Origin: Orenia marismortui DSM 5156
Lineage (GTDB): Bacteria > Bacillota > Halanaerobiia > Halobacteroidales > Halobacteroidaceae
Direction of reading: 5' to 3'
DNA: 64,000 bases
Assembly (NCBI RefSeq): GCF_000379025.1
Contig: NZ_KB900623.1
Coordinates: forward strand, 170,334 to 234,333
Below the pieces are notes generated by a model, which worked only from the letters and a program-made list of their open reading frames with translations, searched no databases and was not told the DNA's origin. Below, piece after piece: positions 37,838-52,396 of the stretch (position 1 is its first letter; each line of letters starts with the position of its first letter). Made by a program: the position numbers and the translations under genes.

Positions 37838-38425
37838 TTGCAGAAAAAAAGAGTAATAATTGTTAGTGATGGTGATAAGACTGCCCAAAAAGCAGTAGAA
37901 GAAGCAAGTCAAAATTTGGGTTTAAGAGTAATTTCAAAATCTGGAGGTAATCCAACACCTTGTTCTGGTAAGGAATTAATAGAGATGATTCAAGAGTGCC
38001 CTGCTGATCCAATTGTTTTAATGGTAGATGATGAAGGAAATTTTGGTTATGGTAAGGGTGAAAGGGCTATGGAAAGAATAATAAAATCAGAGAAAGTTGA
38101 TGTTTTAGGAATAGTGGCAGTTGCATCTAATGCTAAAGATGTTGAAGGTGTAAAGCCAGAGATTTCAGTAACTAGAGATGGAAAATTAGTCTCTGGACCA
38201 GTCAATAAAGGAGGAGAATTAGAAGCTAAGGGGCATCATATTTTAGAAGGTGATACAGTTGATATAGTTAACAACTTTGATGGAATAGTAATCGGAATAG
38301 GAGATATAGGTAAGATGTCTGGTAAGGATTATTTTGAAATTGGAGCTCCTATTACAACAAAAGCGTTAGAAGAGGTATTAAAGAGGAGTGGAGTAAAGAA
38401 TGGACAAGAAAAAGAAGATCAGTAA
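37838..38425 (+). CDS. spoVAEA: Stage V sporulation protein AE (soluble SpoVAEa type)
   Basis: Soluble protein of 195 residues, homologous to SpoVAEa, with opening KKRVIIVSDGDKTAQKAVE and central FGYGKGERAME and GIVAVASNAKDVEGV motifs. Its molecular role in DPA handling is unknown. The start is TTG at 37838 with AAGGAGAG 8-9 bases upstream; no nearer ATG is in frame. The 3' end overlaps spoVAF by 26 bases. Confidence 0.92.
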   Translation: MQKKRVIIVSDGDKTAQKAVEEASQNLGLRVISKSGGNPTPCSGKELIEMIQECPADPIVLMVDDEGNFGYGKGERAMERIIKSEKVDVLGIVAVASNAKDVEGVKPEISVTRDGKLVSGPVNKGGELEAKGHHILEGDTVDIVNNFDGIVIGIGDIGKMSGKDYFEIGAPITTKALEEVLKRSGVKNGQEKEDQ

Positions 38426-39869
38426 GGAGTTAGGTGAAAATCTACAGGTTATTAAAGACATAGTAGATGGTCCTAAGACCTTTGATTTTATTAATCGAGA
38501 TTTTAAGATAGGGGGCAAAGATGCTAGTTTAATATTTATTGATAGTATGATTAAAGGTGGTCTTTATAATCGTTTGTTAGAATATTTAATGGAAATAAAG
38601 AGAGAAGACTTAAGTGTTGATGTAATAAAGAAGATACTAGAAAGTAAGTTGCCATGGGTTGAGGTATCTACTGTAGACAATGTTAATGACTTAATGAATG
38701 AGGTTCTAGCTGGTCCTCAAGCATTATTAATTGATGGGGCAGATCAAGCAATTATTATTGATGGTAGGACTTGGATGTCTCGTGGTCCTGCAGAACCTGA
38801 GTTAGAAAAATCAACTCGTGGTCCAGAGGATGGTTTTATAGAGACTATGCTCTTTAATCTACAAATGATTAGAAGAAGGATTCGTGATCCCAAATTGCGG
38901 GCTGAAGCTTTGAGGGCTGGAAAGAGGTCACAAAATGATATTGCTGTAGTTTATATTGAAGATATTGCTGATCCAGAACTAGTAAAAGATGTGAAGGATA
39001 AAATTAAAGATATAGATGTAGATGGTCTGCCCTTAGCTGATAGAACTGTAGAAGATTTCTTAACTCGTAATACTTGGAATCCATTACCGACAGTTAGATA
39101 CAGTAATCGTCCAGATGTGATCACTTCTAGTATTTTAGAAGGGAAGGTTTGTGTTATAGTTGATAATTCCCCAACAGCTTTAATTCTACCTGCTACTTTT
39201 TTTGACCATACACAGAATATCGAGGAATATCGTCAATCACCACTTCCTGGGACTTATTTAACTTTACTTCGCTTTGCTGCTGTTTTATTGTCTTTAATAT
39301 TACCTCCATTATGGTTAGTTTTAGCTTATGGACCAGAATGGTTACCTAAAAGTTTAGACTTTATAGGAGTTAGAGAGATGGGAAAAATTCCAATAGGGAT
39401 TCAATTTATTTTAGCTAGTTTTGGTATTGATTTAGTAAGGATGGCATCGATACAAACTCCCAGTTCTTTGGCAACGTCTTTAGGTTTAATTGGTGCTTTA
39501 ATGTTAGGAGAATTTGCAGTTAAGGTAGGAGTATTTAGTACAGAAACGATTCTTTATATGGCTATAGCTGGAATCAGTAATTTTACTATACCTGGTTTTG
39601 AATTTGCTTTAACAATCAAGATTTTACGTTTAGGACTAATAGTTTTAGTAATCTATTTTAAATTGGCAGGATTGATTGGGGGGATAATATTAATCTTCTT
39701 ATTATTTGCTATGAGCAATTCTTTTGGAACCCCATATTTGTGGCCTTTAATTCCATTTAATGCCAAAGCCTTGAAGAGTTATCTGATTAGGCAATCTATT
39801 TTGAACTTAAGTGATAGAAGGCCTAATATACGTCGAAGTAAAGATGCTGATCGTTTATCAGATGAATAA
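38400..39869 (+). CDS. spoVAF: Stage V sporulation protein AF (GerA-family)
   Basis: GerA/GerAA-like spore membrane protein of 489 residues: a soluble N-terminal domain (about 1-285) and then five hydrophobic segments in the C-terminal part (about 295-320, 340-360, 368-385, 400-440). Motifs LPWVEVSTVD, RGPAEPELEKSTRGPEDGF and FTNPxLF-like LRFAAVLLSLILPPLW mark the family. The ATG overlaps spoVAEA, so translation is coupled. Completes a spoVAA-AB-AC-AD-AE-AEa-AF order identical to Bacillus. Confidence 0.94.
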   Translation: MDKKKKISKELGENLQVIKDIVDGPKTFDFINRDFKIGGKDASLIFIDSMIKGGLYNRLLEYLMEIKREDLSVDVIKKILESKLPWVEVSTVDNVNDLMNEVLAGPQALLIDGADQAIIIDGRTWMSRGPAEPELEKSTRGPEDGFIETMLFNLQMIRRRIRDPKLRAEALRAGKRSQNDIAVVYIEDIADPELVKDVKDKIKDIDVDGLPLADRTVEDFLTRNTWNPLPTVRYSNRPDVITSSILEGKVCVIVDNSPTALILPATFFDHTQNIEEYRQSPLPGTYLTLLRFAAVLLSLILPPLWLVLAYGPEWLPKSLDFIGVREMGKIPIGIQFILASFGIDLVRMASIQTPSSLATSLGLIGALMLGEFAVKVGVFSTETILYMAIAGISNFTIPGFEFALTIKILRLGLIVLVIYFKLAGLIGGIILIFLLFAMSNSFGTPYLWPLIPFNAKALKSYLIRQSILNLSDRRPNIRRSKDADRLSDE

Positions 39870-39895
39870 TAGATTTTAATGTAGGGAGTGATTTG

Positions 39896-40816
39896 GTGAA
39901 AACAAAGATAGGTATACCACAAGCTTTGTTGTATCATAGATATTATCCTGCATGGAATAGATTTTTTAAAGAGTTAGACTGCGAAATTGTAAATTCTAAA
40001 GAATCTACTAAGAATACAGTAGATGCTGGAATAAGGTTAGCTGTAGATGAGGCTTGTTTGCCTGTTAAATTATTTCTAGGTCATGTACATTATTTGAAGG
40101 ATAAGGTTGATTATTTATTTATTCCAAGAATTGTTAGCATAAACTCTAAAGAGTATTTATGTCCTAAGTTCATGGGCTTACCTGATATGGTTAAGTATAA
40201 TATTTCAAATTTACCACCAATAATAGATACAACGATAAATTTGAGAAATAATAGGCTTAACTTAATTAAAGCAGCTAGAGAAGTTGGTGATATATTAGGT
40301 AAGAATTTTTGGCAAGTTAATTTAGCTCTTTGGAAAGCATGGAAAGAGTTAAAAGCTTATCGATGTCAGATCAGATCTAGAGTTAATGATAACTCCAAAT
40401 ATAAAATTGGAGTACTAGGCCATGAATATATTATTTATGATAAACATATTAGTATGAATTTGATTAATAAATTAAAGGATATGGGAGTAGAAGTAATAAC
40501 TGCTGAAATGTTATCAGAGTCTTGTTTGAAAGATGGAACTTCTAATTTATCCAAAGATTTATTCTGGACTTTGAGTAAAAATATGATGGGAGCTGCTTAT
40601 CATTTTTTCGATCGGAATGATATAGATGGTATTATTCAATTGACTGCTTTTGGATGTGGTCCAGATTCATTAATTGGAGAGATGATTGAAAGAGAAGCAA
40701 AACGAAGAAAGAAACAACCTTTTATGACTCTTAATTTGGATGAGCATACAGGTGAAGCTGGATTAGTTACTAGATTAGAAGCTTTTGTAGATATGATACA
40801 ATGGGAGGGGGTATAG
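39896..40816 (+). CDS. Acyl-CoA dehydratase activase-related protein (DUF2229 type), subunit 1
   Basis: Resembles the DUF2229 segment of large fused CoA-substrate-specific activases (homologues of 2-hydroxyglutaryl-CoA dehydratase subunits). Visible motifs: IGIPQALLYHRYYPAW at the start, VDEACLPVKLFLGHV and near the end TAFGCGPDSL and NLDEHTGEAGLVTRLEAFVD. The Cys in DEACLP and GCGPD are those expected to bind a [4Fe-4S] cluster. GTG at 39896 is taken; TTG at 39893 is too close to the AGGGAGTG site. It is the first of three adjoining genes that together cover what is one polypeptide in many Clostridia. Confidence 0.8.
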   Translation: MKTKIGIPQALLYHRYYPAWNRFFKELDCEIVNSKESTKNTVDAGIRLAVDEACLPVKLFLGHVHYLKDKVDYLFIPRIVSINSKEYLCPKFMGLPDMVKYNISNLPPIIDTTINLRNNRLNLIKAAREVGDILGKNFWQVNLALWKAWKELKAYRCQIRSRVNDNSKYKIGVLGHEYIIYDKHISMNLINKLKDMGVEVITAEMLSESCLKDGTSNLSKDLFWTLSKNMMGAAYHFFDRNDIDGIIQLTAFGCGPDSLIGEMIEREAKRRKKQPFMTLNLDEHTGEAGLVTRLEAFVDMIQWEGV

Positions 40817-41914
40817 ATGAAGGTTACTTTTCCTCATATGGGAACAATGTCAATTCCAGTGAAAACATTATTAACAGAATTAGGATTAGATGTTATTGTT
40901 CCTCCAGCCATTACCAAAAAAACTTTAGATTTAGGTGTAAAATATTCTCCTGAATTCGCTTGCTTACCTCTGAAATTAAATATTGGAAACTATATAGAAT
41001 CCCTGGAAAAAGGTGCTGATACTATTATCATGGGTGGTGGTGTTGGTCCTTGTCGTTTTGGATATTATGGTGAGGTACAAAAGGATATATTAAATGATCT
41101 AGGTTATAATTTTAATATGATAATATTTGAGCCTATTCAAGGGCACTGGAAAGAGTTTTATAAGAGTTTGAAAATGTTACTAGGAAATATTTCTATAATG
41201 AAAATCAAAACAGCTTGGGAACGGGCTTGGGTAAAGGCTAAGGCTGTGGATCATATTAATAGATTAACTAATCAACTTAGACCTTATTTAGTTAATAGAA
41301 AAGAGGCAACAAAGCTTTACAATCAGGGATTAACTATGATTGATAATGCTAATAATATTGATGAGACTAGAAAAGTTACAGATAAGATAGAAAATAGATT
41401 GAATTCTCTAGAACAGGTTCAAGGTTATACTCCTTTAAAAGTAGGGCTAGTTGGAGAGATCTATGTCTTATTAGAACCTTTCACTAATTTACATATAGAG
41501 GAGAAGTTAGGAGAATTGGGTGTTTTAGTTGATAAATCGGTCTATTTAACAGATTGGATAGAAGAACATCTATATATATCAATTTTTAGAAAGGATAAGA
41601 ATCGTCGTAGAATTGCGAAACTAGCTAAACCATATTTGAATTATTTTGTAGGAGGACATGGAGTAGAATCAGTAGGAGAAGCAGTATTATACTCTCAAAA
41701 AAATTTTGATGGAGTTGTTCATTTAGGTCCTTTTACTTGTATGCCTGAGATTATTGCACAAAGTATTTTGCCTACTGTAAGTAAAGATTTAGATATACCT
41801 ATATTATCTTTGAGTGTAGATGAGCACACAGGGGAAGCAGGCTATATTACTAGGTTAGAAGCTTTTGTTGATCTATTATCTCGTAAAGATAAAAAGAAGG
41901 AGAAGATAATATGA
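40817..41914 (+). CDS. Acyl-CoA dehydratase activase-related protein, subunit 2
   Basis: Second HgdB-like component of 365 residues. It begins KVTFPHMGTMSIPVKTLL, has EFACLPLKLNIGN and MGGGVGPCRFGYYGE (cluster Cys), and ends with the same SVDEHTGEAGYITRLEAFVD block as the previous gene, showing that the two are related. It starts directly at the stop of subunit 1 (GGAGGGGG upstream) and overlaps the ATPase gene by 4 bases. No acyl-CoA dehydratase or CoA-transferase gene is in the window, so the reduced partner is unknown. Confidence 0.8.
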   Translation: MKVTFPHMGTMSIPVKTLLTELGLDVIVPPAITKKTLDLGVKYSPEFACLPLKLNIGNYIESLEKGADTIIMGGGVGPCRFGYYGEVQKDILNDLGYNFNMIIFEPIQGHWKEFYKSLKMLLGNISIMKIKTAWERAWVKAKAVDHINRLTNQLRPYLVNRKEATKLYNQGLTMIDNANNIDETRKVTDKIENRLNSLEQVQGYTPLKVGLVGEIYVLLEPFTNLHIEEKLGELGVLVDKSVYLTDWIEEHLYISIFRKDKNRRRIAKLAKPYLNYFVGGHGVESVGEAVLYSQKNFDGVVHLGPFTCMPEIIAQSILPTVSKDLDIPILSLSVDEHTGEAGYITRLEAFVDLLSRKDKKKEKII

Positions 41915-42861
41915 AAGAAGGCTATATGGGAATAGATGTAGGTTCAGTTAGTACTAATATTGCGATTATTGATCAAGATAGAAAGGTATTAGAGAAATTG
42001 TATATTAGAACTGAAGGACAGCCAATTAGAGCTATTCAAGAAGGATTGATGAGAATAAAAGATTCAATAGATATAGAAATTCTAGGGGTAGGTACTACAG
42101 GAAGTGCTAGAAATTTAGCTGGAGTTATTGTAGGAGCAGATATAACTAAAAATGAGATAACTGCTCATGCAGTGGCTGCTTCAACAGTTGTACCTGAAGT
42201 TCAAACTGTACTAGAAATTGGAGGGCAAGATTCAAAAATAATAATTTTAAGAGATGGAGTTGTAGTTGATTTTGCTATGAATACAGTCTGTGCAGCTGGA
42301 ACAGGTTCTTTTTTAGATCAACAGGCAAGCCGCTTAAATATACCTATCCATGAATTTGGTAAAATTGCTTTAAAGGCTAATAATCCTGTAAGGATAGCAG
42401 GTCGCTGCTCTGTTTTCGCAGAATCTGATATGATACATAAGCAACAATTAGGGCATAATTTAGAAGATATAATAGCCGGACTTTGTCAAGCTTTAGTAAG
42501 GAATTATCTTAATAATGTAGGTAAAGGTAAAGAAATTCTGGGTCCAGTTGTCTTTCAAGGTGGGGTAGCAGCTAACAAAGGGATTAAAGAATCTTTTGAA
42601 AGTGAATTAGGATTAAAGGTGATTGTCCCTGAATATCATGATGTTATGGGAGCAATTGGCTCAGCAGTTTTAGCTTATGAAGCAGTCAAAGAGAAGGGGA
42701 AAAGCAATTTTAAAGGATTTGATACATCTGATTTTAATTATCATGTATCTAGCTTTGAGTGTGAAGGATGTCCAAATCATTGTGAGATTATCAATATTCA
42801 TCAAGAAGATGAGGTTATTGCTCGTTGGGGATCAAAATGCCCTAAGTGGGAAGCTGTATAA
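41911..42861 (+). CDS. Acyl-CoA dehydratase activase (BcrA/D-HgdC family ATPase)
   Basis: ASKHA-fold ATPase with a [4Fe-4S] cluster at the dimer interface that drives low-potential electrons into a partner enzyme. ATP site: YMGIDVGSVSTN at residue 5, IGGQDSKII near 105. The cluster ligands are the Cys of NTVCAAGTGSF and AGRCSVFAESD. A C-terminal extension (about 280-316) has five more Cys (CEGCPNHCE and SKCPKW), unlike simple HgdC, and looks like an extra metal site. ATGA overlap with subunit 2 implies coupled translation. Confidence 0.9.
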   Translation: MKEGYMGIDVGSVSTNIAIIDQDRKVLEKLYIRTEGQPIRAIQEGLMRIKDSIDIEILGVGTTGSARNLAGVIVGADITKNEITAHAVAASTVVPEVQTVLEIGGQDSKIIILRDGVVVDFAMNTVCAAGTGSFLDQQASRLNIPIHEFGKIALKANNPVRIAGRCSVFAESDMIHKQQLGHNLEDIIAGLCQALVRNYLNNVGKGKEILGPVVFQGGVAANKGIKESFESELGLKVIVPEYHDVMGAIGSAVLAYEAVKEKGKSNFKGFDTSDFNYHVSSFECEGCPNHCEIINIHQEDEVIARWGSKCPKWEAV

Positions 42862-42910: not shown

Positions 42911-42939
42911 TTGACAATGGTACTATAATTATTTATAAT
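42911..42939 (+). promoter_or_regulatory. Consensus sigma-A promoter of the efflux cluster
   Basis: TTGACA at 42911-42916, exactly 17 bases, TATAAT at 42934-42939: both hexamers match consensus. Such a strong promoter usually needs a repressor, which fits the palindrome directly downstream. Confidence 0.9.
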
Positions 42940-42941
42940 AT

Positions 42942-42977
42942 AAAACAACAGAACTGACTAGTCAGTTCTGTTGTTTT
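42942..42977. promoter_or_regulatory. 36-bp perfect palindrome, probable TetR-family operator
   Basis: Perfect inverted repeat centred on CTGACTAGTCAG, starting two bases after the -10 box and covering the predicted transcription start near 42946. The core resembles operators of TetR/AcrR repressors. The TetR gene at 51827 closes the same gene cluster. It might also act as a terminator for the upstream activase genes, since T residues follow the right arm. Confidence 0.65.
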
Positions 42978-43109
42978 GATTAATTTTCTAGTTTGAAGTA
43001 TATCTTCTATAACTTATATAAGACTGTAAGGGGTGAGATAATAGTGATATAGTTGAATTTTAATAAAGAAGATAACTAATAATTAAGATAAAATGGAGGT
43101 GCTCTTTTG

Positions 43110-45401
43110 ATGAGAAAAAATATAGTATTAAGTCTAGTATTTTGCATGTTATTTAGCTTAATAATATCAAATTTAGCTTATGCAGAAGAAAGTTATCAAT
43201 CTGAGTTTGATAAAGTAAATATTGGTATAATTTATGAAGGCAATGATAAATTTAATTTAAAATTAAAAAAGAGGATTGAAAAGGAGGTATTAGAATTATT
43301 ATCTGATAAATATCAAGTTGAATTCAGTGAGTTTAGAGCTGATGATTTAGCAGTTCATAATATAGTAATGGATAAGTTATTGGCTAATCAGGAGATAGAT
43401 GTTATTATCACAGCAGGAATTTTGGGTTCTTACTCTGCCATAAGTAGAGATAATTTTAGCAAAGCAGTTATAGCTCCTTTTATAATTGATGATGATACTG
43501 TCAATTTTAGTATCAAAGAAGATAAGAGTGGAGTTGAAAATTTAAATTTTATAACTGTTAATTCTTTTTTGAAAAGGGATATTAAGTTTTTTAAGAGATT
43601 AACTAATTTTGATAAGATGACTTTTATAACTCCTAAGAATCTTATTATGGGAAATGAAAAAATAGTGGAGCTATTAAATCAAGAAGCAAAAGAAAATAAT
43701 ATAAAGGTAGATTACATATATACAAACAATTCAAAAAAAGATATTATAAAAGAATTAGATAAGGTTGAAGTAGCTTATATTTTCCCACTTATATCAGAGG
43801 ATAAAGGATCTTTGCTACTTGCTGAATTGAATCAACGAAAAATTCCTACCTTTACATTAGCAGATATTATGAGGTATAAAGAAGGATTTTTAGCAGGATA
43901 TTCTCATAATAAAGAAATAAATGCAAGGGCAAGAGCTGCAGCACTTAATCTAGAACTGATCTTGGCAGGAGAAGAAGCTGCTGATTTACCGATTTATATT
44001 GATAAAAGTGATGAGGAATTTGTTATCAATATGAAAGTGGCACATGAGATAGGATTTTTACCTGACTGGGATATTTTAGAGACTGCTAAGTTAATTAATC
44101 AGGATAATTCAGTCAAAGAAGAATTAACTTTACAAGAATCGATAGAAACTGCTCTTGATAATAATTTAGATTTACAAGCAGCAGAAAAAGATTTAGACAT
44201 AGCTCAAGATAATTTAAAACAAGCTAGCAACAAAAGAAAGCCGAAATTTGATTTAAATACTACCTATGCTCAGGTAGATGAAACTAGAGCAGGAAAAGGA
44301 ATTGCATCAGAACAGAAGTTAACTGGTGGGCTAAAGCTTGAACAAGTCTTATTTAGTGAAGATCTAAATGCTAATATAGATATCAAGGGAGATTTATACA
44401 AACAAAGTAAAGTAGAGTTAAAGAAGAAGAAATTAGATTTGATTTTAGATACTATTAATTCTTATATTCAAACATTAAAGGTAAGGGCAGATATGAGGTT
44501 ACAGGAAGAGAATATTCAATTAATTAAAGATAATCTAAATATAGCCAAAACTAAAAATGAAATTGGGGTTTCAGGACCTGCTGATATATATAGATGGGAA
44601 AGTCAACAGTCAGTAGGGTTAATGAACTTATCACAAGCAGAAAGTCAATTAAGGATGGTTAAGGATAATCTAAAAAGAACTTTAAACCTACCTTTAACAG
44701 AGGATATTGAACTAACAGAAATAGATCAACAGAACCTATTCCAAGAATTGTATAAAGAATTTAAAATTGATAATTCCTGGGAATTAGAAAATTTAAGTGA
44801 GAAACTGGTTAAAGAAAGTATTCAAAATTCACCAGAGGTAGAAAGTATAGATTATTTAATCAAAGTCAAAGAGAGAGAATATCAAATGAAGAAAAGAAGA
44901 TATTACCTACCTCAAATAGGATTATCTGCACAATATGATACTTATTTAGAAGAATGGGGTATAGATGGTCCAAGTGGGGCAGATGCTCATGGTGAAGATG
45001 AGTGGAGTATTGGTATTCAAGCCTCTTTTCCATTATATGATGGTGGTAACAAGAAGGTAGAACTTTCTAAGGTTAAAAAAGAGATTCAACAGTTAAAAAC
45101 AACTAAAAAATCTTTGGTAGATAAATTATCACAAAATCTTAGAAATAAACTAACAGTTGTTAATACAGAGTATAGAAAGAATAAATATGCTAAGGATGCA
45201 GTGGATACAGCATATAAAAATTTAGAGTTGGTTAAAGATGCTTATTCTAAAGGTCTTGTGTCAGTTGCTGAACTTTTGGATGCTCAATCAGCAGTAATAA
45301 ATGCTAAGAGGCAAGAGTTTGTAACCAAATATAATTTCTTGAATTCAGTAGCTGAGGTACAAAGAGCACTTGGAAATTTTGATATTATTGATATTAACTA
45401 G
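43110..45401 (+). CDS. TolC-family outer-membrane factor fused to an ABC-substrate-binding-like domain
   Basis: Exported protein (signal peptide about residues 1-26, ending LAYA) with two unlike halves. Residues about 35-330 resemble ABC_sub_bind proteins (PF04392): VNIGIIYEGND, DVIITAGILGSYSA, and a closing VINMKVAHEIGF section that matches their NLKTAKALGL ending. Residues about 345-763 are a TolC-type outer-membrane efflux domain with two long helical repeats (LTLQESIETALDNNLDLQAAE; AYSKGLVSVAELLDAQSAVINAK) and beta-strand blocks such as SIGIQASFPLYDGG. ATG at 43110 is used; TTG at 43107 is equally possible after GGAGGT. It leads an operon with an adaptor and an RND permease. The added domain may gate or select substrates (inference). 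Confidence 0.85.
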   Translation: MRKNIVLSLVFCMLFSLIISNLAYAEESYQSEFDKVNIGIIYEGNDKFNLKLKKRIEKEVLELLSDKYQVEFSEFRADDLAVHNIVMDKLLANQEIDVIITAGILGSYSAISRDNFSKAVIAPFIIDDDTVNFSIKEDKSGVENLNFITVNSFLKRDIKFFKRLTNFDKMTFITPKNLIMGNEKIVELLNQEAKENNIKVDYIYTNNSKKDIIKELDKVEVAYIFPLISEDKGSLLLAELNQRKIPTFTLADIMRYKEGFLAGYSHNKEINARARAAALNLELILAGEEAADLPIYIDKSDEEFVINMKVAHEIGFLPDWDILETAKLINQDNSVKEELTLQESIETALDNNLDLQAAEKDLDIAQDNLKQASNKRKPKFDLNTTYAQVDETRAGKGIASEQKLTGGLKLEQVLFSEDLNANIDIKGDLYKQSKVELKKKKLDLILDTINSYIQTLKVRADMRLQEENIQLIKDNLNIAKTKNEIGVSGPADIYRWESQQSVGLMNLSQAESQLRMVKDNLKRTLNLPLTEDIELTEIDQQNLFQELYKEFKIDNSWELENLSEKLVKESIQNSPEVESIDYLIKVKEREYQMKKRRYYLPQIGLSAQYDTYLEEWGIDGPSGADAHGEDEWSIGIQASFPLYDGGNKKVELSKVKKEIQQLKTTKKSLVDKLSQNLRNKLTVVNTEYRKNKYAKDAVDTAYKNLELVKDAYSKGLVSVAELLDAQSAVINAKRQEFVTKYNFLNSVAEVQRALGNFDIIDIN

Positions 45402-45419: not shown

Positions 45420-46646
45420 ATGAAAAAAATAAAAGCTTTATTAATATTATTAACATTAGCTGTTTTATCCTTGATAATAGCAGGATGTGGCAATAGTGTA
45501 GCAAAGGAAGCAGCAGTTAAGAAGGTTATCAGGCCCGTTGAGTATCAGAAAGTAGAATTAAAGAAGGTGGACTTCACTTACGGTTATTCTGGAACTTTAG
45601 AGCCAAATGTAAGTATTAATGTTAGTTTTAGGATACCAGGGAAGATAGAAAATATATTTGTAGAGGTTGGTAATAAAGTAGATGAGGGTCAATTATTAGC
45701 TGAGTTAGATAAGACCGATTATAAATTACAAGTAAAAGCAATGGAGTCTAACATAAGTCAAGCTAAAGCTGGAGTAAGTAGTTCCTTGGCAAAGGTTTCA
45801 CAAGTAGAATCTGCGATAGCTAGTGTAGAAGCACAGTATAGTGAAGCAACTAGTAGCTTTAATAGAATTAAAAGATTATATCAAAATAATAATGTATCTA
45901 AAGCAGATTATGATAAAGCTAAAGCTGCCAAAGAATCTGTTGAAGCAAAATTAAAACAGGTTAAAGCTCAATTAGCAGAAGCTAAAGAAGGTGTGGAAAA
46001 TGCTAGAGCAAGAGTTGATTCCTATCAAAGTCAATTGGAATTAGCTAAATTAAAGTTAAGCTATACTGAGCTAAAGGCACCTATGTCAGGAACTATTGTC
46101 AAGAAAGATTATGAACCAAATGAGAATATAAGTGCAGGTAGGCCTGTATTTACACTTGATGGTAATGGTGGATTTGAGGTAAAGGTATTTGTTGATGAGA
46201 ACTTAATCTCCAAGATAGAGGAAGGTCAGCAAGTAGCAATAGAAGTTTTAGCTCTTAATAAAAGTAATTTGCAAGGAAGAGTAGATGAGATCGGAAGGCA
46301 AATTAAGGGTTATAAAGGAAACTATCCACTAACTATAAGAATCACTAAAGGTCTAAAAGAACTAAGAGCTGGAATGACAGCAAAGGTTTATTTTAGTTTT
46401 TCAGAGGATAAAAACAAATTGATTTTACCAGTATCAGCAGTAATTGCTAATGATGAAGGTAATTTTGTATATACATTAAGCAAATTTTCTGATGGATATG
46501 CAAAAGTAAAGAAAGTTAGAGTAGAGACAGGAAAACTTAACTCTAAAGGTATAGAAATTTTAAATGGATTAAAGATAGGAGAACTTGTAGTAACTAAAGG
46601 TGCAACTCAAATAGTAGACAATCAAGAAGTTCGATTACTAAACTAG
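45420..46646 (+). CDS. RND efflux periplasmic adaptor lipoprotein
   Basis: Membrane-fusion protein that links the RND pump to the TolC channel. A lipoprotein signal ends with IIAGC (lipid-bearing Cys near residue 23). A biotinyl-lipoyl half-motif (FRIPGKIENIFVEVGNKVDEG) is followed by a long coiled-coil hairpin (about 95-215; KAAKESVEAKLKQVKAQLAEAKEGV) and the second lipoyl half (LSYTELKAPMSGTIVKK), then beta-barrel and MP domains. Length of 408 residues is normal. AAAGGAGG lies 9 bases upstream of the ATG; it is 18 bases after the TolC-type gene. Confidence 0.95.
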   Translation: MKKIKALLILLTLAVLSLIIAGCGNSVAKEAAVKKVIRPVEYQKVELKKVDFTYGYSGTLEPNVSINVSFRIPGKIENIFVEVGNKVDEGQLLAELDKTDYKLQVKAMESNISQAKAGVSSSLAKVSQVESAIASVEAQYSEATSSFNRIKRLYQNNNVSKADYDKAKAAKESVEAKLKQVKAQLAEAKEGVENARARVDSYQSQLELAKLKLSYTELKAPMSGTIVKKDYEPNENISAGRPVFTLDGNGGFEVKVFVDENLISKIEEGQQVAIEVLALNKSNLQGRVDEIGRQIKGYKGNYPLTIRITKGLKELRAGMTAKVYFSFSEDKNKLILPVSAVIANDEGNFVYTLSKFSDGYAKVKKVRVETGKLNSKGIEILNGLKIGELVVTKGATQIVDNQEVRLLN

Positions 46647-46662: not shown

Positions 46663-49600
46663 ATGGGATTTACTGAATTAGCAATTAAGAAGAAGTATGT
46701 AACTTTTACTCTAATAGCCTTATTGATTATAGGTGGAGTTGGAGCTTATTTTAATCTGCCAAAATCTGAAAATCCAGGTTTTATTGTTAAAACAGCTACG
46801 ATAATAACTTATATGCCAGGAGCAAGTCCTGATAAAATTGAAAATTTAATTTCTGATAAAATTGAGGAAGCAGTCAAGGAAATACCAGAATTAGATTATG
46901 TAGAAAGTACAAATAAAACCGGTTTTTCTTTAGTAAAAGTAAATATAGAGTCACAATATAAAGATTTGAGACCAATCTGGGATAGCATGAGAAGAAAGGT
47001 TAATGCAATTAAATCTCAATTACCATCAAATAGCATAGGGCCTATTATTAATGATGAGTATGGAGATGTTTTTGGAACTATAATCGGAATTACTGGAGAA
47101 GATTATAGCTATGCTGAGCTTGAAGATATGGTTGAAGATATGCGTGATGAACTCTTAACTATAGATGAGGTTGCTAAAGTAGATATAGTTGGACAGCAAG
47201 ACAAGAGAATTTTCATAGAATATGATAATGATAAGTTATCTGAGATGAATCTTTCTCCATATCAGTTACAACAGATGTTAGCAGGAAGAAATATTATATT
47301 ATCAGGGGGGAATATAGAATTAGGATCAGAAAGGATTCCTCTAGAGCCAACAGGTGATTATAATGATGTAGAAGAGATTAAAAATACTTTAATTTCACTT
47401 CCTGATGGTAATATGATTTATCTAAAAGATATAGCAGATGTTAGAGAAGGATATATAGATCCAGCTCGTGCTAAGATGAGAGTAGATAATAAGCCAGCTT
47501 TAGGATTGGCTATCTCTATGAAAGATGGAGGTCAAATTACTAAATTAGGAAAGAAGGTTCAAGACAAGGTAGAGTATTTCAAGACTCAGTATCCAATAGG
47601 TGTAAATTTTGATTTTATCTCTTTACAATCAAAATTAGTTGAAAAGAAGGTAAGTAGTTTTACTGCAAACTTAATTCAAAGTACCTTAACAGTTATAGCT
47701 GTATTACTAATATTTTTAGGATTAAAAGAAGGAGTTTTAGTATCTACCTTAGTTCCGGTAGTAATTGCTATTACCTTTCTTTTGATGTCAATCTTTGGAA
47801 TAGGAATAGATACAATCTCCTTAGCAGCTTTAATAATATCTTTAGGAATGTTAGTTGATAACTCTGTTGTTATGGCAGAATCAATTATAGCTAAATTAGA
47901 AGAGGGAATGGGTAAATTAGAAGCAGCTATTTCTTCAGCTAAGGAGTTAAAGGTTCCATTATTAGTAGCTTCTTTAGTAACTTGTGCTGCATTCTCTCCA
48001 ATTGGATTTGCTCAATCTAATGTAGGAGAGTTTGCTGGTGGAATCTTTAAGGTAGTAGCCTTAGCTTTAATGACATCTTGGGTATTATCTTTGACTATGG
48101 TTCCTTTGTTTGCCGTCTTATTTTTGAAGATTGATAAGAAAGAAGAGGCATATAATGGGAGAATATATAAAGGTCATGGTAAATTACTATTAAGTCTAAT
48201 GAAGCATAAAGTGTTATTTGTAATCTTAATGATCTTCATAGTATTTTTAGGAGTTAAAGGAATGGGCTTAGTGCCTAAAGTATTTATGCCTAAAGATAAG
48301 AAGACTGTGATGACCTTTGAAGTTAAGATGCCTAAAGGGACTTCAATTAGAAGAACAGAAATGGTTGCCAGAAATATAGATGAGTATATAGAAGATAAAT
48401 TAAAAGTAAAGCCAGAACAAGAAGAAGTAAGCTTCTTTAAACAGCTATTATCTGGTGGAACTACAGTAAAATATAAAGATGAGGGAATATTAAATTGGGG
48501 AACTTTTATAGGAGAAGGTGCTCCAAGATTTACCTTAGCTTATAGTGCTGAATTAAATAGCCCTGAATATATTTACTATTTAATTAACACAACTTCTGTA
48601 GAGGTAATTAAAGATTTAATTCCTAAATTAGAAGGATATACTATTAATAAATTTCCTGATAGCGAAGTTAAAGCTCAAGAATTAGAGATCATGCCTGTGG
48701 GAAAACCAATTCAAATTAGAGTCTCTGGTAGGGAAATGGATAAGCTTTATGATATAGTTCATTCTGTCAAAGATAAGCTTAGAACAATTGATGGAGTTGA
48801 AGACATTAGTGATGATTGGGGATTGAAAACTAAGAAACTAACTATAAATATAAATCAAGATCGACTAGAAAAAGCTGGTCTAAGTAATAGAGATGTAGCA
48901 ATTTCTTTGCAAACAGTCTTAGATGGTATTCAGTTAACAGAATATAGAAAAGATAATGATATAATACCAGTATTATTAAGAGATAAGCAGAGTAAAAATA
49001 TTGATATCTCTACTTTAGAGACTACTAAAGTTTATTCTCAAAGAACAGGAAAATCTGTTTCACTAAAACAGATAGCAGAAATCAAGAATTTATGGGAGCC
49101 TTCTATGATTTATAGAAGGGATGGTATTAGAACGATTACTGTCAAAGCAGATACGAAGGAAGGTTATACAGCAGCAGAAATTAATAATCAATTAAAACCA
49201 TGGCTTGATCAGGAGAAATCAAGTTGGGGAAGAGGATATAACTATGCTTTTGGTGGAGAATATGAAAGTTCTACAGAAGCTAATGAATCTATTGGAGCAC
49301 AGCTACCTATAACTGGATTAGTTATCTTGTTATTGCTTGTTATTCAATTTAATTCTTATAAGAAACCATTGACAATTATATTAATAGTACCACTTACAAT
49401 TATTGGAGTAGCTATTGGTTTGCTAGTTACTGGAAAAGCTTTTGGATTTATGGAAATATTAGGGCTTATATCTTTGGTGGGAATAATTATTAATAATTCG
49501 ATTGTACTCATTGATAGAATTGGTATAGAATTAGATGAATTTAATAGAAGTCCACAAGATGCTATTTTAGAAGCTGCTAAAAGAAGATTACGTCCAATCT

Positions 49601-49815
49601 TCTTGACTAGTGCAACAACTATTTGTGGTTTATTACCACTTTGGTTTAGTGGTGATGCACTATTTGGTGGAATGGCGGTATCTTTAATCTTTGGATTAGC
49701 CTTTGGGTTATTAATAACTCTTGTAGCAGTTCCTGTAGTTTATTCTATAGTTTTTAATATTAATTATAAGAACTATGAGTATAAGATTGATGATAATATC
49801 TCTATAGAGGGATAA
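46663..49815 (+). CDS. RND-family efflux permease (AcrB-like)
   Basis: Proton-driven inner-membrane pump of 1050 residues with the usual duplicated topology: helix 1 at residues 13-30, periplasmic loop to about 330, six helices (about 335-490), second loop from helix 7 (about 515-535) to about 870, and the last helices (870-1030). Motif GMLVDNSVVMAESI in helix 4 contains the relay Asp, and GIIINNSIVLIDRI is its counterpart in the second half. AcrB's two neighbouring Asp are represented by one here. The pump belongs to the HAE-1-like group that exports drugs, dyes or lipids; substrate unknown. GGGAGGGC lies upstream of the ATG. Confidence 0.95.
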   Translation: MGFTELAIKKKYVTFTLIALLIIGGVGAYFNLPKSENPGFIVKTATIITYMPGASPDKIENLISDKIEEAVKEIPELDYVESTNKTGFSLVKVNIESQYKDLRPIWDSMRRKVNAIKSQLPSNSIGPIINDEYGDVFGTIIGITGEDYSYAELEDMVEDMRDELLTIDEVAKVDIVGQQDKRIFIEYDNDKLSEMNLSPYQLQQMLAGRNIILSGGNIELGSERIPLEPTGDYNDVEEIKNTLISLPDGNMIYLKDIADVREGYIDPARAKMRVDNKPALGLAISMKDGGQITKLGKKVQDKVEYFKTQYPIGVNFDFISLQSKLVEKKVSSFTANLIQSTLTVIAVLLIFLGLKEGVLVSTLVPVVIAITFLLMSIFGIGIDTISLAALIISLGMLVDNSVVMAESIIAKLEEGMGKLEAAISSAKELKVPLLVASLVTCAAFSPIGFAQSNVGEFAGGIFKVVALALMTSWVLSLTMVPLFAVLFLKIDKKEEAYNGRIYKGHGKLLLSLMKHKVLFVILMIFIVFLGVKGMGLVPKVFMPKDKKTVMTFEVKMPKGTSIRRTEMVARNIDEYIEDKLKVKPEQEEVSFFKQLLSGGTTVKYKDEGILNWGTFIGEGAPRFTLAYSAELNSPEYIYYLINTTSVEVIKDLIPKLEGYTINKFPDSEVKAQELEIMPVGKPIQIRVSGREMDKLYDIVHSVKDKLRTIDGVEDISDDWGLKTKKLTININQDRLEKAGLSNRDVAISLQTVLDGIQLTEYRKDNDIIPVLLRDKQSKNIDISTLETTKVYSQRTGKSVSLKQIAEIKNLWEPSMIYRRDGIRTITVKADTKEGYTAAEINNQLKPWLDQEKSSWGRGYNYAFGGEYESSTEANESIGAQLPITGLVILLLLVIQFNSYKKPLTIILIVPLTIIGVAIGLLVTGKAFGFMEILGLISLVGIIINNSIVLIDRIGIELDEFNRSPQDAILEAAKRRLRPIFLTSATTICGLLPLWFSGDALFGGMAVSLIFGLAFGLLITLVAVPVVYSIVFNINYKNYEYKIDDNISIEG

Positions 49816-49872: not shown

Positions 49873-51714
49873 ATGTCAAAGAAGTTTAGAATATATTTAA
49901 CTGTTTTATTATTAGTTTCTCTTAATTCAACTTATGTTTTGGCAAATATAAATGCAGATAGTAATTTGACTAGAGTGGTCAAAGATGAGGAAATATATTT
50001 AGTAGAAGATTATCAGCGCTTTAAATCATCTTCCCGTCCAAAAGTTGCAGTCGCATTGACAGGTGGAGGGGCTAAAGCTTTTTTTAATATAGGTGTGATT
50101 AAAGCTTTAGAGGAGGAAGATATTCCAATAGATTTAATTGTAGGAACTAGTATGGGATCGATTATTGGAACTATGTATGGTAGTGGAATTTCTATTGAGC
50201 AGATTGAAGAGATAGTAACAGAAGCTCCCTTTACTAATTTATTGGAAATGAATTTTATAGATAATGACTCTTTTTTTGAGACTGCTAAAGTTAATAAGTT
50301 TCTTGAGAATATAGCACCTTATAAGAGGTTAGAAAAATTTCCTATACCTACAGCCTTATTAACTTTAGAAGTAGATAGTGGGCATAAGTATATAATTACT
50401 ACCGATAGAATATCCAAAGTAGTACAAGCTTCCTATGCTATTCCTCATTTCTTTCCACTTTATCAGATGGAGGATAAATATTTTGCTGATCCTGGTATTT
50501 TAGAAAATTCCCCTGCTAAGGCAGCTAAAGCTTTAGGGGCAGATTTTGTGATTGCTACTACGTATACAGCTGATAAAAGTCATGATAGTTATGAAACTCC
50601 AAATAAGATAATTAATCGATATGTAGATATAGTCTCAGAGAAGAATAATAAGAGAATACTTAACAATTATTCAGATATAATAGTTGAAGCTGATATTAGT
50701 GGTTACTCTTTTTTTGATTTTAGTAGTGCTGGTGAATTAATTGAAATTGGATATCAAAGCACTAAAGATCAGATTTCAAAACTAAAAGTGGCCTTAAAAT
50801 CTAAAAGAATTCCTTTGAGAAAAAGAGTAGCTAGAAAGAAGTTAGCTTTAGATCAAGAGTTTAATGATATAAAATATGATAGAATTTTAGTTTCTTCTAT
50901 TATATTTAATCCAGTTCTTCATTATGGGCAAGACTATTCTTTCTTTAAACAAGATTTGTTAAGAAGTTATTTAAATATTCCCCAATATGGCTTTGAGTTT
51001 GAAAAAGATAAGGTTGATTTTAAATTTCTAGCAACTAATAATGTTACTAATGATTTAGAAGCAGAACTTAGGTGGAAGAAGTTAACTCAAAACACTGATC
51101 TTATAGCTAAGACCAGAATTGAGTCTAATGAGACTGATGATGGAGAGATAGGGATTAGATATTATGAGGATAATTATTTTTGGAGTGCAGGGGTAGGAAG
51201 TATTAATAATAATAGTTATGTTTTTGCAGATGCTAAGTATGAGCTAGGTTTTAATAGATTAGATTTAGAAGGAGAAATTGATTTATTCTTTGATGAAGCT
51301 GGTAAAGTTCCTAAAATTTTAATTTCTAAGAAGACAGTTTCTAAATTAAGCGATTCTTGGCTTTTAAAACCGAAAGTAGTATTTAATAATAGTGAGCTTA
51401 TAGAATCTCCTCTGATTTATCGAGGATCTACTCCAGATGATTTTAGTAGGTTTCAATTTTCTTTAGATTATGCTTATACCCATCAGTTTGTTAAAAGCAT
51501 AAAATTGACAAAAATTATTGATATTAAAGATATTGGCGCTTATTTATTCACAGATTATTTAAATGATAAAGAATCCTCTCTAGCTTATGGGGTTGGTTTT
51601 AATGGAGATTTTTATTTATTGGGACTGAAACCCTTTAGGTTGGATTGTTATCTATCTTATGATCAGAATAATGAGGAGTCTATTATTAGGGCTAATTTAA
51701 ATTATAACTTTTAA
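49873..51714 (+). CDS. Patatin-like phospholipase with predicted C-terminal outer-membrane beta-barrel
   Basis: Exported protein (signal peptide about residues 1-24). The patatin domain (about 55-310) has the oxyanion loop LTGGGAKAFFNIG, nucleophile elbow GTSMGS (Ser93) and the catalytic-dyad Asp in FADPGIL (near residue 206; DPG rather than the usual DGG). The remaining 270 residues alternate polar and hydrophobic positions in strand-like units and end in Phe (ANLNYNF), the mark of an outer-membrane barrel. This layout recalls the PlpD type (type Vd) secreted patatins, though no clear POTRA domain is seen. ATG follows GGGGGTGATG. Stands between the RND genes and tetR. Confidence 0.82.
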   Translation: MSKKFRIYLTVLLLVSLNSTYVLANINADSNLTRVVKDEEIYLVEDYQRFKSSSRPKVAVALTGGGAKAFFNIGVIKALEEEDIPIDLIVGTSMGSIIGTMYGSGISIEQIEEIVTEAPFTNLLEMNFIDNDSFFETAKVNKFLENIAPYKRLEKFPIPTALLTLEVDSGHKYIITTDRISKVVQASYAIPHFFPLYQMEDKYFADPGILENSPAKAAKALGADFVIATTYTADKSHDSYETPNKIINRYVDIVSEKNNKRILNNYSDIIVEADISGYSFFDFSSAGELIEIGYQSTKDQISKLKVALKSKRIPLRKRVARKKLALDQEFNDIKYDRILVSSIIFNPVLHYGQDYSFFKQDLLRSYLNIPQYGFEFEKDKVDFKFLATNNVTNDLEAELRWKKLTQNTDLIAKTRIESNETDDGEIGIRYYEDNYFWSAGVGSINNNSYVFADAKYELGFNRLDLEGEIDLFFDEAGKVPKILISKKTVSKLSDSWLLKPKVVFNNSELIESPLIYRGSTPDDFSRFQFSLDYAYTHQFVKSIKLTKIIDIKDIGAYLFTDYLNDKESSLAYGVGFNGDFYLLGLKPFRLDCYLSYDQNNEESIIRANLNYNF

Positions 51715-51826: not shown

Positions 51827-52396
51827 ATGCATCCCAAAAAAGAGAAGATATTTGAGGCTGCGATAGAGAAGTTTGCTAAAAAGGGTACAACTTCTACAAC
51901 GATGCAAGAGATTGTGAAAGCAGCAGGTATAGGAAAAGGAACTTTATATCGTTATTTTGAAAATAAAGAAGATCTAATTTTTTCTTTGATTGAGTTTAGG
52001 TTTAATATAATATTTGAAAAGGTTAAGGCTGATATAATTAAATTAGATGATCCTATTCAAAAAATAGAGAAAGTAATAGATGCACATTTGAACTTTTGTG
52101 CTATTCATGGAGCAAATAAATTTTTAATCCGAGAAGTTTGGGGATATAAAAGTAAATTTAAGAATGCTATTCAAGAGATGATGTCGCTTTACACTGGATT
52201 TATTAAAGATATTATTGAAGAAGGGATAGAACAGGGTAAATTTAAAGAAGTAAATGCGCTTAATGCAGCTACTGCTTTAATTGGGATGATTGATATAACT
52301 ATTATACGTTGTATGATGTTTGAAGAAGATTTTTTAACAAATAAAATTAGAGAAGATATTGTTGAAATTTATTTAAATGGAATGGTTATAGACTAA
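51827..52396 (+). CDS. TetR/AcrR-family transcriptional repressor
   Basis: DNA-binding repressor of 189 residues. The N-terminal helix-turn-helix (about 10-55) reads TTMQEIVKAAGIGKGTLYRYFENKEDLI, the classical TetR pattern. The C-terminal helical domain (about 65-189) would bind a small ligand. AAGGAG lies 6-8 bases upstream of the ATG. It closes the efflux cluster, so its most likely target is the palindrome at 42942 over the consensus promoter; this is inference from context. Followed by a terminator. Confidence 0.92.
   Translation: MHPKKEKIFEAAIEKFAKKGTTSTTMQEIVKAAGIGKGTLYRYFENKEDLIFSLIEFRFNIIFEKVKADIIKLDDPIQKIEKVIDAHLNFCAIHGANKFLIREVWGYKSKFKNAIQEMMSLYTGFIKDIIEEGIEQGKFKEVNALNAATALIGMIDITIIRCMMFEEDFLTNKIREDIVEIYLNGMVID

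Follow-up and report, generated by a model that had tools for sequence, protein, structure and literature searches.

Orenia marismortui DSM 5156 encodes a TolC-type channel whose N-terminal domain is homologous to the ABC_sub_bind (PF04392) proteins and belongs to the class I binding-protein fold. The gene lies in a 64,000-nucleotide stretch of contig NZ_KB900623.1 (the window), in an operon with an RND adaptor and permease (Table 1). On sequence grounds, the same fusion recurs in three phyla. Most likely, the N-terminal domain descends from a binding protein and now serves another purpose on the channel's periplasmic side, its ligand site having been changed or lost. As an architecture the fusion is solid; the proposals made below for its mechanism are less so.

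Table 1. Features of the fusion gene and its surroundings (window coordinates unless a locus is named).
Feature	Position	Strand	Basis
Sigma-70-type operon promoter TTGACA - 17 - TATAAT	42911..42939	+	12/12, consensus match only
Perfect 36-bp palindrome AAAACAACAGAACTGACT/AGTCAGTTCTGTTGTTTT	42942..42977	.	directly 3' of promoter
Palindrome comparison loci	window 42942-42977; L060:2569-2592; L061
TolC-type channel with N-terminal ABC_sub_bind-derived domain, 763 aa	43110..45401	+	ORF reading, domain searches, orthologues
Signal peptide, aa 1-25, cleavage after AYA	43110..43184	+	sequence reading
Class I periplasmic-binding-protein-like domain, PF04392-related, aa 36-335	43215..44114	+	Pfam of relatives, hhalign, Foldseek, VIA-align
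TolC/OEP channel domain, aa 338-763	44121..45398	+	PF02321, TIGR01844
RND periplasmic adaptor, lipoprotein-like N-terminus (IIAGC)	45420..46646	+	TIGR01730 5.6e-71; lipobox by eye
RND permease (ACR_tran)	46663..49815	+	PF00873 2.4e-156
Patatin-like phospholipase with signal peptide	49873..51714	+	PF01734 2.8e-26
TetR-family regulator	51827..52396	+	PF00440 5.9e-17

The fusion is read from one frame without a stop or frame break. This frame spans 43107..45401 and opens with TTG followed by the ATG at 43110, from which the 763 residues are counted. Its sole signal peptide (MRKN...NLAYA|EESY, by eye) stands at the N-terminus, and no second one precedes the TolC half, in agreement with the initial annotation of a single ORF with one signal peptide. 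A TolC efflux domain had also been placed at residues 345-763, and it was recovered: OEP (PF02321) matches the channel half twice (2.6e-45; 155 bits against a Pfam cut-off of 22), TIGR01844 (TolC) matches residues 338-758 (4.8e-37), and the C-terminal 426 residues are a complete two-repeat OEP channel. A full-length monomer model, built with AlphaFold from an alignment two sequences deep, was of low confidence, with a pLDDT of 41. The adaptor and RND permease said to follow the channel gene were identified with strong profile matches, with gaps of 18 bases between fusion gene and adaptor and 16 bases between adaptor and permease.

In its two-repeat channel and its operon with adaptor and pump, the Orenia protein resembles the TolC/OMF family (TCDB 1.B.17; PF02321, TIGR01844). 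OMFs average 472 +/- 30 residues (PMC4827864), whereas the Orenia protein has 763, with a domain of about 300 residues added. Two further TolCs encoded by O. marismortui have 443 and 437 residues (L005, L006) and no extra domain. The initial annotation had put ordinary TolCs at about 430-480 residues, with no binding lobe. Outer-membrane pores fused to other domains are called rare, and the sections consulted contain no OMF fusion of the Orenia type (PMC4827864). A search of the open-licence literature found no description of a TolC with a solute-binding domain.

Residues 35-330 had been described as PF04392-like. The N-terminal half of the window protein gave no Pfam match at E<=1 with hmmscan, and its N-domain had no useful hit in Pfam, in NCBIfam or among PDB sequences; therefore, hmmscan could not have made the PF04392 call from this sequence alone. 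The evidence comes instead from relatives and from structure. The orthologue in genome G001 (L008) matches PF04392 over residues 86-324 (1.5e-12; 47.9 bits, the curated cut-off being 25.9), and a fusion from Sulfuricurvum, described below, does so at 9.8e-10 (38.6 bits against the same cut-off). When seven fused N-domains were compared with five ordinary PF04392 proteins by hhalign, they aligned over 283 columns (prob 98, E 2.4e-13); the four closest fused N-domains alone gave prob 97 and E 9.4e-12. The alignment is consistent with the earlier reading of the segment VINMKVAHEIGF as the end of the PF04392 domain.

Structure searches, like the profile searches, matched a periplasmic binding fold, and the description as PF04392-like thus stands. 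The N-domain model is of moderate quality (pLDDT 61) and alternates strands and helices as class I binding proteins with two lobes do. In a Foldseek search, this model returned PF04392 chains in the three top places, with 3lft (Trp-bound; 1.8e-9, TM about 0.35) and 3lkv first; 6hnj, also a PF04392 relative, ranked tenth. VIA-align of the model against 3lft gave a Z of 9.6 and an rmsd of 7.6 over 200 residues. The N-domain therefore shares the class I fold, and by profile comparison whole-length homology, with the solute-binding proteins SP1069 (3lft), VC_1101 (3lkv) and CD0873 (6hni/6hnj). The Orenia protein differs from these in that it is fused to a channel instead of being a lipoprotein that accompanies an ABC importer, and its gene neighbours are the adaptor and RND permease. 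Elsewhere in the O. marismortui genome (C1, L003:106-2484), a histidine kinase carries an N-terminal PF04392 domain and a PAS domain, an instance of the PF04392 family as a sensor in this organism.

Orthologous fusions of 760-767 residues, in the same channel-adaptor-permease operon, were found in two further Orenia genomes (G001 and G002) and in a genome from another family (G009). Their N-domains are 66 and 60% identical to that of the window protein within the genus, and 42% identical in G009. One of the further carriers in the genus is Orenia metallireducens (L011). Of 59 genomes searched from the class, only these three and that of O. marismortui carry the fusion, and five other genomes of Orenia's own family lack it. 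Close relatives of the RND permease (88, 88 and 60% identical) are confined to exactly the genomes with the fusion, other RND permeases being less than 30% identical to that of the window, and the channel half follows the same pattern. Therefore, the channel, adaptor and permease seem to move or be lost as one unit. Between the window gene and that of G001, dN/dS is about 0.20 for the N-domain and 0.17 for the channel (dN 0.20 and 0.16, with dS about 1.0), a similar degree of purifying selection.

Wider searches covered genomes, viral contigs and plasmids. A search for the N-domain in all genome contigs matched only Orenia metallireducens, but it was seeded by two short conserved peptides, which distant fusions can escape, as the plasmid search showed. 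A seven-member profile run against 398 genomes of the phylum gave, outside the order, nothing but weak matches, which lie in normal-sized frames. Four non-fused matches from other searches (L014, L015, L016 and L065) proved on inspection to be ordinary solute-binding proteins. The last of these, a match with stops in genome G004, was considered as a decayed fusion and rejected, being an ordinary 325-residue binding protein beside an ABC permease. The viral contigs searched contained no usable match.

Among 72,556 plasmid records, distant fusions with full-length similarity to the window protein were found in two other phyla. Plasmid pSULKU01 of Sulfuricurvum kujiense (Campylobacterota) encodes an 803-residue protein (WP_041667226.1) that matches residues 87-760 by tblastn (4e-57). 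It has the architecture of the Orenia fusion, but its gene sits between a TetR gene and genes for HlyD, an RbbA-like ATPase and an ABC permease, an ABC-type exporter operon instead of an RND operon. The domain thus occurs with both kinds of pump, and its association is with the channel, not with the pump type. Plasmids of Cetobacterium somerae (Fusobacteriota) encode TolC family proteins of 723 and 726 residues with an N-terminal extension; as in Orenia, their operons also encode an adaptor and an RND permease, and the permease shares 37-38% identity with that of the window. This extension is about 40 residues shorter than that of Orenia and has no direct PF04392 match; an hhalign match (E 1.1e-4, prob 56) and its position connect it with the Orenia domain. 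Public records list the Sulfuricurvum and Cetobacterium proteins under partial names, WP_041667226.1 being annotated as 'ABC transporter substrate binding protein'.

An aromatic amino acid is the ligand in each of the three PF04392 proteins with a solved structure (PMC6816091). The fusions were aligned with these three and four further ordinary members, at identities of 15-20% on which the whole pocket argument is built. Only 12 of the 44 columns invariant in the ordinary binding proteins are kept in at least 3/4 fusions, and the residues common to the solved aromatic-amino-acid binders are accordingly not preserved as a set. The kept columns are mainly G, P, D and N and look structural, while the binding-protein motifs HP..LD, TP.AQ, GTSD and P.DN are mostly gone. 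In the Cetobacterium forms, two stretches are missing, one around D127 and one holding P226-L227; judging by the alignment, both should lie at strand ends facing the cleft. E59, D97, N144-N146, R273, R275, N280 and N307 do not vary among the seven fusions, even in the shortened forms of Cetobacterium. Ordinary binding proteins do not have R273 and R275, which belong to an R-x-R-(A)-LN helix in the last part of the N-domain, ahead of the channel junction. In the four close orthologues, Y42, G44, D46, F48 and N49 (in the loop after the first strand) and S107 are invariant, a pattern that would suit a new ligand site.

We give about an even chance to the reading that the N-domain is an accessory or docking collar in which the ancestral aromatic-amino-acid site has been lost. 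The fusion protein would be exported by its one signal peptide, and its C-terminal half would trimerise as a TolC channel. In TolC the N-terminus is periplasmic and located at the equatorial region, which would place three copies of the N-domain outside the channel wall. There they may stabilise the channel or contact the adaptor, the peptidoglycan or the outer membrane, and any small-molecule binding would use a different, lineage-specific site. Two points favour the collar: the domain follows the channel and not the pump type, and it is unlikely that every member binds a ligand in the classical cleft. Given the low identity of the alignments, this preference over a sensor or loader is weak.

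A lobe that closes on a periplasmic molecule, and then passes it to the pump or alters the state of channel or pump, is a reasonable possibility to which we assign somewhat worse than even chances. It would follow naturally from the class I fold and PF04392 descent, from the aromatic amino acid bound by 3/3 solved relatives (PMC6816091), from the sensor domain of the histidine kinase in the same genome, and from the conserved loop residues of the Orenia group. The loss of most binding-protein motifs and the absence from Cetobacterium of the two stretches aligned to cleft loops argue against it; moreover, RND substrates enter through the permease, while the N-domain should sit outside the channel wall. 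A fuller version, in which the channel-borne lobe would sense or capture a periplasmic molecule, control opening or pump loading and pair with RND or ABC pumps as a ligand-gated efflux duct, we regard as doubtful. To our knowledge, TolC systems have no such ligand-gated control point. That the domain is a functionless passenger, a tolerated remnant of an old gene fusion, would agree with the divergent pocket and the shortening in Cetobacterium; however, purifying selection close to that on the channel, and retention in every close operon copy and across three phyla, make this very improbable. The initial annotation had also allowed for a separate gene joined by a sequence error. The unusual length of the protein, and nothing else, speaks for such a sequencing or assembly error; however, the fusion recurs in independent genomes and phyla, which refutes this reading, and the TolC half has no second signal peptide. 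The chance of an error is practically negligible.

TolC channels are usually regarded as passive ducts that are opened by the adaptor. A conserved channel domain that derives from a binding protein, accompanies two pump types and is spread over three phyla would give tripartite pumps either a new docking element or, on their outer-membrane side, a part that responds to substrate.

Expression of the operon is probably controlled by the TetR-family protein, a putative repressor, acting at the palindrome as its candidate operator. The palindrome also scored as terminator-like in a scan. In G001 its core ACAGTACTGACCAGTCAGTACTGT is kept, adjoining an equivalent promoter, with 0 occurrences expected in shuffles. 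In G002, the 300 bases ahead of the fusion gene do not contain the palindrome, and the frame for TetR, with only 144 residues, begins past the DNA-binding (HTH) part. This fits the palindrome being the operator of TetR, and it looks as if repressor and operator were lost jointly. In G009 the regulator is swapped: a divergent MarR gene (L062:10996-11463) lies upstream of the fusion gene instead of TetR, and a direct repeat, ACTTGCAAATAGAAAGT, is present there in two copies. Control by TetR or MarR is usual for pumps that export hydrophobic compounds.

The patatin-like gene of the operon is present in all three genomes of the genus and absent from G009. Its product has a C-terminal half that ends in F (YNF) and looks barrel-like by eye, and it is possibly an outer-membrane barrel. 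The Sulfuricurvum fusion gene too has patatin and phospholipase A genes nearby. Upstream of the operon, two 2-hydroxyacyl-CoA dehydratase-like genes and an activase (39893-42861) are preceded by a gene group similar to a sporulation stage V / YIEGIA-type cluster (37838-39869), both read by eye, and the host appears to form spores in addition to having outer-membrane efflux genes.
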